From: Spirochaetales bacterium | GTDB lineage: Bacteria; Spirochaetota; Spirochaetia; SZUA-6; DRHE01 | DNA: 42,033 bases | Direction of reading: 5' to 3' | NCBI GenBank assembly: GCA_030604195.1 | Contig: JAUVWI010000028.1 | Span: 1 to 42,033 of the forward strand | Shown: positions 3,039 to 32,183 of the stretch, one piece after another | Layout of the letters: each line of letters opens with the position of its first letter | Numbering within the stretch: position 1 is the first letter of the stretch | Program-made: the position numbers and the translations under genes | Notes under the pieces: model-generated | The model's input: only the letters and a program-made list of their open reading frames with translations | Database searches by the model: none | What the model was told of the DNA's origin: nothing

Positions 3039-4901
3039 TGAAGAATATTCTAAAGACTTTGGTGAGCAGAAAAGAGCTGGCAGCCGTTGCCATGGGACAT
3101 ATCAAGGCGGATAAGGTAATTAAAAATGGTAATCTGATCGATGTTTATACGGGCAAGATCAGGCGCGCTGATATTGCCATAAAGGGAGAAAGGATTGCCC
3201 TGGTAGGAAATGCCGGCCATACAATCGGCGCTGAAACTCAGGTAATTGATGCAGGCGGTTATTATCTATCACCGGGGTTGATGGATGCCCATATACCCAT
3301 AGCAGTCTTCGACTGCAATGGACTTAATATTTCTTGCTATAATAACAAGATTCTGAGCTATCATAGCATATAGAGGCAAGCATGGTCAGCCCCGGCCAGT
3401 TTGCCAGGGCAGTGCTGCCAGGAGGAAATACTGCAGTAAACTGGGAAACCCTGTGGGCGGCTAATGTCCTGGGCGTGAGGGGTTTAAGAATGCTCCAGGA
3501 GGAGTGCAACCGGACGCCCCTGAAGTTTTTTCTAACCGCCACCTCGGGTGTGCCCTGTGCCGCGACCCACCTGGTAACCGCTAATGAGGTCTTTGAAACC
3601 GCGGATATAGAAGAGATGTTGAAGTGGCCGCAGATTGTGGGTCTTGGCGAGGTTGTTACCTTTAATGATGTTATTCAGGGCAGGGAGAGAGAGTTTGAAC
3701 AGATAGAGAAGGCCTTAGCTGTTGGCAAAACAGTTGACGGCAGCTCACCCGGCTTTACCGGCAAGGAACTCAACAGCTATACAGCTGCGGGAATCATGTC
3801 TGAACATGAGGCCATGACCCCGGAAGAGGCGCTGGAGCGGCTACAGCTGGGTTTAAGGCTGGTTATCCGGGAGGGGGGTCGAGTATGCGCAACATATTTG
3901 ACCTGCTCAAGGTGATCACCGAAAGCGAGGTTGACACCCGCCGCTGCTGTTTCTGTGTGGATGACAAGGATATCCGGGAGATAGCCGCCGAGGGTTTGAT
4001 TGATGACCTGGTACGAAAGGCCATCTCCGTAGGTATCGATCCGGTTACCGCGGTGCAGATGGGCTCGCTGAACACGGCCGAGTATTTCCGGCTGGACAGG
4101 GATATAGGGGGGATCGCTCCCGGAAGGTTTGCCGATATCCTCTTTATTGATAATCTGCCCGATTTTTCGGTGAACAGGGTTATGGTAAACGGCAAGCTGG
4201 TTGCTGAACACGGCAAGCTGCTGGCAGAGACAGCGGCAGCCAGCTACCCTGAATGGGCGGTTAATACGGTTAAACTGAGAAGAGAGCTTAGCCCTGCTGA
4301 TTTTGTTTTTTCCACCAATAAGAAGAATCAAGTCGAAGTGCGGGTGATCAAGGTATTCGGCGAGCAGATTGTAAGCTATGAGGAAAAAGAGAGGTTAAAA
4401 GTAGTGGGCGGAGCTATCCAGCCCGATCCCGGCAAAGATATTCTCAAACTGGTGGTCGTGGAGCGTTACGCTAAAACCCCGCCCAATATTGCCCACGGTT
4501 TTGTCCGGGGCTTTGGTTTCAAAGATGGGGCAATCGCTACCAGTATCTCCCCGGACATCCACCAGCTCATTGCAGTGGGCAGGGATGAGCATGATATTGC
4601 CGCAGCCCTGAACCACCTGATTGCCATCCAGGGAGGGGTCGTTGTCTGCAGGAAGGGAAAGATCCTGACAGAGCTCTCTCTGCCAATTGGCGGTCTGATG
4701 ACCGCTCAGCCCTATGAAGAGACCATTAAAGCGCTGGAAGCTATAAGCAAGGGCGGGGCCGGAGAGCTGGGCTGTGTACTGCCCTCTCCCCTGATGACCC
4801 TGGCCTTTGCCGGCTGTCCCACGCTGGTGGAGTTCAAGCTGTCAGATAAGGGACTGATAAATATTCTTGAGGGCAGCCTGGCGCCCCTGGAGGTGGATTA
4901 A
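3038..4901 (+). pseudogene. ade: Adenine deaminase, inactivated
   Basis: Three consecutive frames together match bacterial adenine deaminase (adenine to hypoxanthine). The N-terminus has IKNGNLIDVYTGKI...YYLSPGLMDAHI. The middle part starts MVSPGQFARAVLPGG. The C-terminal part runs from IFDLLKVITESEVDTRRCCF to PLEVD at 4901. The GTG start at 3038 has AAGGAGG 5 nt upstream. Lesion 1 is a 71-bp insert (3296-3366) that splits the HxH metal-binding motif; removing it restores DAHIHIEASMVSPG. Lesion 2 is a frameshift at a G6 run near 3872-3877, where four or seven G would restore REG(G)SSMRN. Missense changes also hit expected metal or catalytic residues: the DPHEIAN-type motif reads ETLWAAN and the VDGHAPG-type motif reads VDGSSPG. 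With several independent lesions it is dead, not mis-sequenced. It neighbours purine uptake and oxidation genes. Confidence 0.85.
3296..3366 (-). repeat. Structured repeat copy 1 (short form, 71 bp)
   Basis: Read on the minus strand it begins CTATGATAGCTCAGAATC and shares about 48 nt with copies 2 and 3: the TTGTTATTATAGCAA hairpin, then GAAATATTAAGTCCA. Its right part is replaced by a compact hairpin, CCATtGCAGTC-gaa-GACTGCtATGG, ending TGGG. It is therefore an internally shortened derivative of the 116-120 bp form. The 5' flank is TATATG and the 3' flank is TATATG. Excision of exactly 71 bp restores the adenine deaminase frame, which fixes both boundaries well. Confidence 0.8.
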
Positions 4902-12225: not shown

Positions 12226-13119
12226 TCAATCCTCACCCTTTTCATAGGGTTTGCCGTCCGCGGCCGGGGCCCTGGCCTTGCCGGCCATTCCGGCAAGCAC
12301 CACTATAGCTAAAACATAGGGAAGCATCTGCACAAACTGGCTGGGAATGGGAATCTTGGTCTCAAACATGATGCGGAAGGTATCGGCGTAACCGAAAAGT
12401 AGAGAGGCTAAAACCGCTCCAATTGGGTGCCAGCGGCCGAATATCATGGCTGCCAAAGCTATAAAGCCGCGCCCTCCGGTCATACCGTTAATCCACTGGG
12501 ATGGATAGAGGGTGGCTGCGGAGAAGCCGCACATAGCGCCGGATATTATTACACCCGCGTAACGCATAAGATAGACATTTATGCCAAGGGTATCCGCAGC
12601 CTCGGGGTTTTCGCCCACGGTACGCAGCCTGAGGCCGAATACTGTGCGGTAGAGAATGAACCAGGACAACAGGGCTATTGGAATAATAGCAAAGGCAAAG
12701 GAATTGATACCCAAAAGGGTGGGAAAGCGGAAGGGGTTCATGGCGGACTGGGTTTCCTGGGCGAAAATGCGTTGAGAGAGAAAGCGGGCAATGCCGATTG
12801 CCAGAATATTGATTGCCACACCGGAAACGATCTGGTCGACCCGGTAGGTAATGGTTGCCACCGCATGGATCAGGCTCATCAGGATGCCGGCAGCAACCGC
12901 GGCCAGCAAGCCCATCCATATGGAGCCGAAGGCAATGGAGCCCCAGACAATGACAAAACTGGTAACGATCATAAAGCCTTCCAGGGCAATATTGACCACG
13001 CCGCTCTTTTCAGAAAAAACCGCTCCTAAAGCGGCAAAGCCGATAGGCGCCGACATTTCCAGTCCCTTTACCAAAAAATGAAGAAGAGTTGAAAAATCCC
13101 CAGCGCAGATTACATCCAC
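12226..13119 (-). CDS. Nucleoside ABC transporter permease (PnrE/YufQ-like)
   Basis: A membrane permease of the BMP-associated ABC family. It has FAALGAVFSEKSGVVNIALE near the N-terminus, SLIHAVATITYRVDQIVSGV in the middle, and GRGFIALAAMIFGRWHPIGA toward the end, with 8-10 hydrophobic segments. It imports nucleosides or purine bases together with the partner permease, ATPase and binding protein upstream. I place the start at GTG 13119, which has AAGGAG 7 nt upstream and gives about 20 residues before MSAPIGFAALG, as is normal. Both the ribosome site and the first seven codons lie within structured repeat copy 4. The open frame continues to 13167, and a downstream TTG is an alternative start. 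Confidence 0.85.
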   Translation of the reverse strand: MDVICAGDFSTLLHFLVKGLEMSAPIGFAALGAVFSEKSGVVNIALEGFMIVTSFVIVWGSIAFGSIWMGLLAAVAAGILMSLIHAVATITYRVDQIVSGVAINILAIGIARFLSQRIFAQETQSAMNPFRFPTLLGINSFAFAIIPIALLSWFILYRTVFGLRLRTVGENPEAADTLGINVYLMRYAGVIISGAMCGFSAATLYPSQWINGMTGGRGFIALAAMIFGRWHPIGAVLASLLFGYADTFRIMFETKIPIPSQFVQMLPYVLAIVVLAGMAGKARAPAADGKPYEKGED

Positions 13120-13217
13120 AACCGAACTCCTTAAAGCAAAAGTCCAATACAATGTATATTCGGGCACTGGACTTGATTATTTTTTGCGCTGAACACGCAA
13201 GATTTTAGAGGTAATAG
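13098..13217 (-). repeat. Structured repeat copy 4 (120 bp), overlapping permease start
   Basis: On the minus strand it is preceded by GATATG, begins CTATTACC and ends GCGCTGGGG. It shares with copies 2 and 3 the AAGTCCA...TGGACTT pair, the GTGCCCGAATATA loop, and the end GGATGTAATCTGCGCTGGGG. It is the most diverged copy: the first hairpin is TTGCG/CGCAA instead of TTGTT/AACAA or AGCAA, keeping the pairing. It lies between the two permease genes, right after the upstream stop codon. Changes to AAGGAG and GTG within the element appear to have made a translation start. Confidence 0.8.
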
Positions 13218-13221
13218 CATA

Positions 13222-20614: not shown

Positions 20615-21175
20615 TTATTGATCCGCCACTGCTTTAGCAACCGCTTTTTGGACCAGTGCGTTTCCCAGATTGAAGCAGAGGGTATGAAAATCAAGCTCTT
20701 TCTCCCTGCCGTCATTATCCCCGGATAATTGACCTTGATCAATAAGTTCACCGCTGGAAACCGCTACTATAAAATATATAACATCGGGCTGCACTTCGGC
20801 ACCGGGCTGCACTTCGGCACCGGGCTGCACTTCGGCACCGGGCTGCACTTCGGATTTTGCTTCGCTTCCCATGGTGGTTTGAATACGGCTCAGGATCAGG
20901 TATGAAGCTCCCCACTTTCCGGCTAGAGAAATAACTGTGCTGAAATCCGGCTGCTGCCAATCAACGGACAAATCCGGTGGGCCCAGATCAAAAGCAATAT
21001 GTTCCATTTCAAAGAGGGAATCAAGTATGCCCTCTTTTAGGGGCAGGGGCAGAGGAGCTTTTTCATAGTTGAGTAATTCCTCTGTATATATGGCAAAGGT
21101 TTCCGCACCCGCAGCAGCCGGCAGAGCCAGCAGTAAGAGCAGAAGTATAATTGAAAACTGTGATTGTCCGGCCAT
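20615..21175 (-). CDS. Exported hypothetical protein with VQPGAE repeats
   Basis: A 186-residue protein. The signal peptide is about residues 1-24 (MAGQSQFSIILLLLLLALPA, then AAGAE). The mature domain has alternating strands and helices (FSTVISLAGKWGASYLILSR) interrupted by a VQPGAE hexapeptide repeat, then YFIVAVSSGELIDQGQLSG. I recognise no family. The general shape, a small periplasmic domain asking whether a factor's activity can be 'seen', recalls lipoprotein-like assembly factors but is not diagnostic. ATG 21175 has AGGAGG 4 nt upstream. It lies 58 nt before the RlpA/SPOR gene on the same strand and is divergent from the VWA/PIG-L gene. Confidence 0.65.
   Translation of the reverse strand: MAGQSQFSIILLLLLLALPAAAGAETFAIYTEELLNYEKAPLPLPLKEGILDSLFEMEHIAFDLGPPDLSVDWQQPDFSTVISLAGKWGASYLILSRIQTTMGSEAKSEVQPGAEVQPGAEVQPGAEVQPDVIYFIVAVSSGELIDQGQLSGDNDGREKELDFHTLCFNLGNALVQKAVAKAVADQ
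20785..20853. repeat. 18-bp tandem repeat inside an exported-protein gene
   Basis: The unit CGGGCTGCACTTCGGCAC is repeated 3.8 times (20785-20802, 20803-20820, 20821-20838, 20839-20853) with no visible divergence. In the coding direction it makes the hexapeptide VQPGAE. The unit is a multiple of three, so copy number can change by slippage without breaking the frame. Confidence 0.9.
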
Positions 21176-23456: not shown

Positions 23457-23984
23457 ATGACCTATTACGTTATACAGGTGCAGACCGGGACGGAGGATAA
23501 ATACCTCCATCTGGCGGCAAATATTATAGAAGCAAACCAGGTGCGCCTCTTATGGCCCAGGAGGAAGCTGCGCATAAAACGAAGGGGTGTGTGGAAAGAT
23601 TACCTGGCTCCCATTTTTCCCGGGTATCTCTTTATTGAGAGTGAAAAAATAAGCCCTGAGTTCTACTGGCAGATCAAGCGGGTACCGGGTTTCCTACGCT
23701 TTTTAAAGGACAATCATAATATTGAACCCCTGGCCAGGCGTGACCAGGAGCTGCTTACTCATTTTTTATCCTTTGGCGAGGTGGTGGAACGTTCCAGGGT
23801 GATTTTTGATGAGAATAAACGCATCAGGGTGCTGCAGGGCCCCTTAAAGGGATTGGAGGGAAAGATAGTCAAGGTGAATCGCCGCAAAGGACGAGCCAGG
23901 GTGAAACTGGACCTTTACGAAGAGTCTTTTCTGATTGATTTTGGTTTTGAGCTCCTGGAGCCGACCGGTCAAGCTATGCTATGA
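23457..23984 (+). CDS. NusG paralogue (RfaH/LoaP-type antiterminator)
   Basis: A 175-residue protein with an N-terminal NGN domain (MTYYVIQVQTGTEDKYLHLA ... IFPGYLFIES, VPGFLRFL) and a C-terminal KOW domain (RVLQGPLKGLEGKIVKVNRR). Specialised NusG paralogues travel with RNA polymerase and prevent termination in long polysaccharide or secondary-metabolite operons. Its position just before the dehydratase, aminotransferase, phosphomannomutase and ManA genes fits that role. ATG 23457 is chosen for the fit of the NGN start. The TGA stop at 23982-23984 lies inside structured repeat copy 2, so the last residue or two may be altered from the ancestral end. The ribosome site is weak. Confidence 0.85.
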   Translation: MTYYVIQVQTGTEDKYLHLAANIIEANQVRLLWPRRKLRIKRRGVWKDYLAPIFPGYLFIESEKISPEFYWQIKRVPGFLRFLKDNHNIEPLARRDQELLTHFLSFGEVVERSRVIFDENKRIRVLQGPLKGLEGKIVKVNRRKGRARVKLDLYEESFLIDFGFELLEPTGQAML

Positions 23985-24094
23985 TAGCTCAAAAGTTTGT
24001 TATTTTAACAAGAAATATTTAAGTCCAGCGCCCGAATATATTGAGTTGGACTTCTGCCTTAAGAACTTCGGTTGCGGATGTAATCTGCGATGGG
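23979..24094 (+). repeat. Structured repeat copy 2 (116 bp)
   Basis: Preceded by GCTATG, begins CTATGATAGCTC, ends GCGATGGG. It contains hairpin TTGTT-atttt-AACAA, the pair AAGTCCA...TGGACTT around GCGCCCGAATATATTGAGT, and CTTAAGAACTTCGG then GGATGTAATCTGCG. It matches copy 3 at nearly every position over its whole length. It lies between the NusG-paralogue stop codon and the dehydratase start at 24145. It could therefore act as a leader structure for that operon, or simply be an insertion. Confidence 0.85.
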
Positions 24095-32010: not shown

Positions 32011-32067
32011 ATACCCATACTTGGGCTTAAAACAGGCCGCATATTGACCTGTCAATAGCTATCTATG

Positions 32068-32183
32068 CTATGATAGCTCACAATTTTGTTATTATAGCAA
32101 GAAATATTAAGTCCAGCGCCCGAATATATTGAGTTGGACTTCTGGCTTAAGAATTTCGGTTACGGATGTAATCTGCGCTGGGG
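32068..32183 (+). repeat. Structured repeat copy 3 (116 bp, best preserved)
   Basis: Preceded by TCTATG, begins CTATGATAGCTCACAATT, ends GCGCTGGGG. Paired parts: hairpin TTGTT...AGCAA, hairpin AAGTCCA...TGGACTT, and a long-range pair CCAGCGC...GCGCTGG, perfect at 7 bp, that competes with the second hairpin for the CCA. It occupies most of the 211-bp gap between two convergent genes, with no obvious gene to control, which argues that the element can sit anywhere rather than being a fixed leader. I use it as the reference copy. Confidence 0.85.

Follow-up and report, generated by a model that had tools for sequence, protein, structure and literature searches.

A family of short hairpin-bearing repeats behind TATG in a Spirochaetales genome, with many copies at predicted start codons

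Four copies of the repeat in the window

The window analysed here is a whole contig (C54; 42,033 nt) of a Spirochaetales genome of 3.83 Mb in 145 contigs, with 97% completeness and 5.9% contamination. It contains four copies of a short structured repeat, each directly preceded by the tetranucleotide TATG. The copies (with ranges that include the TATG) and the features within or next to them are:

32064..32182, plus strand: copy 4, A type, 119 nt; TATG at 32064-32067, inserted segment at 32068-32182
32086..32100, plus strand: left-end hairpin of copy 4, TTGTTA pairing with TAGCAA around a 3-nt loop; helix 1 of the covariation analysis, also present in DNA folds of the A and B versions
32109..32141, plus strand: middle stem of copy 4, 32109-32115 (AAGTCCA) pairing with 32135-32141 (TGGACTT); covariation helices 2 and 3
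32161..32177, plus strand: right-end hairpin of copy 4 with a GTA loop, separated from the element end by 5 nt; covariation helix 4
23975..24094, plus strand: copy 3, A type, 120 nt, located at the upstream gene's 3′ end; TATG at 23975-23978, insert at 23979-24094
13099..13221, minus strand: copy 2, B type with restart site, 123 nt; TATG at 13221-13218, insert at 13217-13099
13127..13132, minus strand: AAGGAG within copy 2, a Shine-Dalgarno-like site read from the sequence, with a putative function in restart
12226..13119, minus strand: gene after copy 2, 297 codons from the GTG at 13119-13117 inside the copy, in phase with native codon 2
3296..3370, minus strand: copy 1, short form, 75 nt; TATG at 3370-3367, insert at 3366-3296

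As the first-pass annotation of this DNA had remarked, the four copies sit in unrelated contexts. By the open reading frame listing and a simple gene caller, copy 1 lies antisense within a plus-strand reading frame, the flanks of which resemble an adenine-deaminase motif; copy 2 follows a predicted start codon; copy 3 lies at a gene end; and copy 4 is placed between convergent open reading frames. At copy 2, the native ATG (13220-13218) is contained in the TATG, and the frame opened by it stops after 29 codons, while the restart frame from the GTG at 13119-13117 is open to 12226 and encodes what we take, by resemblance, to be an ABC-permease-like protein.

The coordinates given earlier were exact for the inserts at 3296-3366 and 23979-24094, but ran one base too low for the insert at 13099-13217 and one base too high for that at 32068-32182. 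The same annotation had paired copies 2 and 3 as near identical and set copy 4 apart as diverged; the near-identical pair is instead copies 3 and 4 (93%), with copy 2 belonging to the other subtype (B; 84% over the aligned part). Copy 1 is indeed shorter, but there is more to it than shortening: its 5′ 52 nt are shared with the other copies and the remainder is replaced by a short hairpin, yielding the 75-nt form. Elsewhere in the window (20782-20853), an 18-bp unit, CACCGGGCTGCACTTCGG, is repeated about four times head to tail within a minus-strand open reading frame.

Dispersal, fold and insertion junction

We built a covariance model on 52 copies taken from three genomes, which match it by construction; it finds at least 99 matches at E≤0.01 dispersed over the 3.83-Mb genome; as 150 of the 1589 first-look candidates were scored, the true copy number may exceed 99. 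BLASTN with copy 4 recovers at least 41 places at E≤0.01 in the same genome (the best 40 of 108 first-look candidates being scored), and its best match after itself (E = 6.2e-45) is far beyond chance. At E≤1e-4 the repeat is present in 3 of 26 genomes of the order, namely its own (80 matches), the sister genome G001, the nearest relative compared (22), and a second relative, G003 (32); the remaining 23 have zero model matches at this threshold. The phage and plasmid records searched gave no match to the repeat. Viral contigs were considered as carriers and rejected: a 15-base pattern has 43 matches in them, which the covariance model did not support as copies, finding only three weak partial matches (best E 0.13). 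A 17-base pattern occurs in at least 99 stretches of a genome collection, and among those listed BLAST confirmed element copies in four, all from the Spirochaetales MAG HyVt-362.

Copies in the genome span 69–154 nt and fall into A (mostly 120 nt), B (mostly 121 nt), B-SD (mostly 123 or 144 nt) and short (mostly 75 nt) forms. Of the 99 matches, 47 are B copies (including 10 B-SD), 21 are A and 31 are short, as sorted by simple sequence rules, with C128:145630, which these rules assign to the short forms, counted as B. The ends are constant, with TATG first in 65/99, TGGG last in 83/99 and A as the next base in 61/99. Inspection of the aligned copies reveals no terminal inverted repeats, the ends reading TATG, then CTAT at the start of the insert, and TGGG at its close. 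The longer forms appear by eye to have small hairpin modules within their stems. Short hairpin modules (GACCGGAGGAAGTCCT, GATGGAACATGCCAGCATGG, CCGCAGGTGCCCGTACAGGGCG) recur in or at the end of many copies in the manner of nested repeats (e.g., L022, L023, L029, L221, L243, L258, L264, L224 and L240), and at three places (L046, L226, L011) paired copies stand in the same orientation about 11–104 nt apart. We also observed, in G003 (L343–L353) and G001 (L371, L372), an approximately 86-nt sister repeat (TATACTATGATG...GCAGCCGCAGGCTGCGCTATG), which has the left-end hairpin in common with the main repeat and a different target and right end; 11 of its 14 sites were seen in this form and TC precedes 13 of the 14.

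The main repeat folds into hairpins close to both ends, with a further stem in the middle. Standard pairs occupy 94.2% of the alignment cells as compared to 34.0–48.1% when one side is slid; the structure was derived from the same sequences, which biases this contrast in its favor. Changes on both sides of a pair occur in 42 cells as against a shuffled mean of 18.1, with two of the five covariation measures not rising above the shuffles. Pairing holds in 88.6% of cells in helix 1 (the left-end hairpin), in 97.2% and 93.1% in helices 2 and 3 (the middle stem), which have zero both-side changes, and in 97.2% in helix 4 (the right-end hairpin), where one pair is changed on both sides. Triloops of the d(GNA) kind make unusually stable DNA hairpins; DNA folds of the right-end hairpins display GTA, GAA and GCA loops in the A type, the short type and the sister family, with one variant right end folding with a 5-nt loop.

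Eight sites of this genome (copies 1–4, C32:15053, C32:19314, C77:42675 and C77:45544) were searched for by DNA in the sister genome G001. Three have clean empty counterparts there: copy 2 (in G001:C255), C32:15053 and C77:45544. All three share one junction, with the insert directly behind TATG and no target duplication. In the BLAST alignments of these sites, a single sister base is aligned with both the G of TATG and the element's final G, and therefore the cut is either TAT^G or TATG^, without duplication. The sister site of copy 3 (in G001:C345) continues from TATG at once into ATAAAAG-AAAAT, as in the right flank of copy 3, the rest of that flank following only after about 80 more nt (a second length difference); it is compatible with an empty site but is not a clean one. 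At the site of copy 1, a G001 contig (L323) spans one flank and then runs into a different right-end-like hairpin at what seems to be the same junction. For the other three sites (copy 4, C32:19314 and C77:42675), no G001 contig spans the position. Orthologues of the gene after copy 2 in G003, G006, G002 and G004 have, by eye, starts without the element. Five other copies of this genome have counterparts in G001 ahead of the same protein, as judged on the downstream residues, which marks them as older, shared insertions.

The earlier proposal of a mobile or once mobile element of about 0.1 kb is supported by the 99 dispersed matches together with the three clean empty sites and their single junction. 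The contrary outcome it had envisaged, namely just four copies at fixed orthologous positions, did not occur, there being more than four copies at positions that are not all fixed.

Copies at predicted gene starts

For the codon phase we considered the gene-like frame directly after each copy (at least 60 codons and a coding score >10, both cut-offs on codon-hexamer scoring being set by us). An in-phase predicted gene follows 27/47 B, 2/21 A and 2/31 short copies, the best frame being out of phase, by eye, in 3, 4 and 7 copies, respectively. Hence, 27 of the 30 B copies with such a frame are in phase (p=1.7e-10), and the A and short forms, with 4 in versus 11 out of phase (4/15), are at chance expectation. 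The upstream frame closes within 45 codons before the TATG in 26 of the 27 in-phase B copies, as at a gene start, with C102:13552 as the exception in having an open frame upstream. Shine-Dalgarno-like motifs, by a loose match judged by eye, precede the TATG in 16/27 in-phase B copies as compared to 5/20 other B and 5/52 A or short copies; a recognizable motif is absent in 11 of those 27. Start-like TATGs account for 98 of 2184 in 361 kb of the genome, or 98/512 (19%) of the start-like and intergenic ones. In the relatives, under the same cut-offs and by eye, 12/18 B copies in G001 and 5/23 in G003 are in phase, with none having its best frame out of phase.

In the examples inspected, the genes behind copies resume at their apparent codon 2. 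The host proteins among these examples include ones that resemble LemA, ThiI, an aldolase and several signal-peptide proteins; for another, the name TolC is given by the database entry of a sister copy. Many B-type copies follow predicted gene start codons, the ATGs of which may be in use.

Two kinds of continuation are seen behind these starts. Among the 31 in-phase copies of all types, the frame from the ATG is open to the gene in 20, an AAGGAG/C-type site is combined with a GTG in phase in 9, and neither feature is present in 2, while the respective numbers among the other 68 copies are 31, 1 and 36. An open leader or a restart site is accordingly present in 29/31 in-phase copies as compared to 32/68 others (p=4.6e-6). 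Nine of the 10 B-SD copies, which are mostly frame-shifted, are in phase and carry AAGGAG. Stops interrupt 0/12 of the 121-nt B copies that are in phase and 4/11 of those that are not. The A and short forms also have open frames, yet rarely lie at gene starts; in the A-type 120-nt copies a second ATG opens a 38-codon frame. The plain description of the element as non-coding in the first-pass annotation is not supported for the many B copies that stand in phase after a predicted start with read-through or a possible restart site.

The differences between leaders amount to 11/17/14 bases at codon positions 1/2/3 over four ortholog pairs, a fifth pair being excluded for unequal length. With the differences spread in this way over the codon positions, the leader peptide itself is not conserved and its codons show no purifying selection, so that a functional leader peptide is not supported. 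By this comparison of sequences, the leader is probably tolerated baggage rather than a function. Two database searches with leader regions returned 6 and 8 proteins, 11 of them distinct, in which the leader is joined to otherwise unrelated sequences; their domains include TolC-, methyltransferase-, ABC-ATPase- and PF01182-type ones, and two of the proteins (P0006 and P0010) have similar mature proteins with different leader types.

Kindred elements, the candidate enzyme and alternative explanations

The repeat reaches the threshold of no Rfam family, and the first-pass annotation had likewise been unable to name it: Rfam has 0 matches in the window at gathering score, and at E up to 5, over five copy loci and one viral contig, there are four weak matches, none at threshold. 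One of these, RAGATH-30 (28.5 bits, where the gathering score is 59.5), lies on the opposite strand and overlaps the end of a short-form copy, and the other three are not on a copy. An origin from attC sites of integrons was set aside by inspection, and a classical MITE was rejected given the absence of both terminal inverted repeats and target duplication.

By resemblance, the closest kind is the palindrome-associated transposable elements (PATEs) of Haloquadratum (PMC3119063): both lack terminal inverted repeats and target duplication, have near-terminal palindromes, are too short for a transposase, occur in many copies and have small repeats nested in palindromes. However, PATEs are archaeal whereas the current repeat is bacterial; their ends are described as related to an IS605-type transposon, while no matching element was traced for the repeat; and here many copies lie behind predicted starts and have either a read-through leader or a restart site. 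IS200/IS605 elements (PMC7290912, PMC8266576) likewise have a hairpin near each end and insert 3′ of a specific tetranucleotide without duplication, as does the repeat, with TATG as the fixed tetranucleotide 5′ of the insert at all three clean empty sites; in contrast to them, it has neither tnpA nor tnpB, and no Y1 gene is found in its 69–154-nt copies. REP/BIME sequences with TnpA-REP (PMC8266576) also comprise many hairpin copies, with a mover thought to be an HUH enzyme, but REPs are 20–50 nt with a GTAG-type tag rather than about 70–150 nt with a hairpin near each end.

Likened by description, the Rickettsia palindromic elements (PMC10969869) are palindromic, about 100–150 bp long and encode in-frame peptides in unrelated proteins. 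They differ in lying inside genes rather than directly behind TATG at predicted gene starts, and in one subtype here a putative restart site takes the place of the open frame. The enterobacterial RU-1/2/3 repeats (PMC2759123) are similarly small, mobile and in frame with unrelated open reading frames, some N-terminally, with no start-codon rule in the passages compared. Within the open-access literature searched, the passages compared report in-frame palindromic repeats from Rickettsia and enterobacteria, none of them aimed at start codons.

We propose, with a probability of roughly 60%, that the observations as a whole are best explained by a start-codon-compatible repeat spreading as folded single-stranded DNA by means of a Y1 transposase in trans. 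For this we infer the Y1 enzyme, the single-stranded intermediate, the use of the ATGs and translation from them. Such an enzyme, of the IS200/IS605-like type, would act by cutting and joining the folded element. As the target contains ATG, the phase is the same for every insertion at a TATG start codon, and this would give the element two means of preserving the host gene: B copies (mostly 121 nt) could be read through as a 39-codon leader starting at the host ATG, and in the frame-shifted B-SD copies (mostly 123 or 144 nt) translation could restart at the AAGGAG-type site and GTG, in phase with host codon 2. The more specific claim, that a selfish single-stranded DNA element with a start codon in its target has evolved the 39-codon leader and the SD–GTG restart as two ways of hiding, we put at about even odds.

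With regard to the enzyme, Y1 searches gave two partial matches in the element's own genome, one of 38.3 bits and one of 21.6 bits that falls below the cut-off; G001 has no match, and G003 has a single Y1 gene, with a complete element copy about 1.3 kb away. Besides that copy, the G003 Y1 locus has only short chance-level stretches of the repeat (best E 0.015), and none of the four Y1 loci inspected has ends shared with the repeat. Since a transposase with matching ends was not found, the enzyme remains a matter of inference and the filing with PATEs one of resemblance; the mobilizing insertion sequence may lie in unassembled parts. A Y2 (IS91-like) HUH transposase in place of Y1 is an unlikely mover, even though Y2_Tnp matches are present in all three repeat-carrying genomes and are more numerous in G003 (15 matches, with long open frames). 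IS91 inserts at a tetranucleotide without duplication. Yet the repeat matches at Y2 loci are only element copies in 4/16 loci, one abutting a Y2 gene fragment, ends shared with the repeat were not found there, and the two-hairpin layout fits Y1 ends better. Also improbable is a remnant of an OMEGA or HEARO-type (IscB/TnpB) system whose RNA part spread alone: a short structured element with a fixed 5′ target would be in keeping with it, but the copies are too short for such a gene and no HEARO match appears in Rfam at E up to 5 over the five copy loci and the viral contig.

A further possibility, which we regard as tentative, is that the codon phase is a matter of survivorship, with insertion behind any TATG and persistence where the gene stays readable, free of any adaptation to start codons. 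The target contains ATG, and phase is set by the target alone; the leader codons, with their 11/17/14 differences, are also without purifying selection. Against this reading, start-like TATGs make up only 19% (98/512), yet 27/47 B copies are in phase as compared to 4/52 A or short copies, and 9/10 of the mostly frame-shifted B-SD copies are both in phase and furnished with AAGGAG. That the repeat is a cis-acting RNA element spread by duplication, i.e., a structured 5′ or intercistronic regulator, appears improbable. Copy 4 does have a stable RNA fold (z = -3.69), and 53/99 copies are flanked on either side by same-strand genes according to the simple gene caller. However, the precise insertion behind TATG and the empty sites disfavor such a regulator, as do the lack of an Rfam family at threshold, the occurrence of copies between convergent genes or, in antisense orientation, inside a reading frame, the Shine-Dalgarno-like motif that, where present, lies upstream of the element, and the wholesale swapping of stems between subtypes.

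Small repeats in bacterial genes are usually regarded as tolerated accidents. Under the proposed spread of a start-codon-compatible element, a repeat can evolve to keep its host genes translated because the ATG in its target fixes the phase at start codons, and the survival of selfish DNA inside genes becomes a directly testable question. Should the predicted starts be in use, many proteins of these spirochaetes would bear an extra N-terminal leader, several of the leader-bearing proteins being, by eye, secreted or lipoprotein-like.
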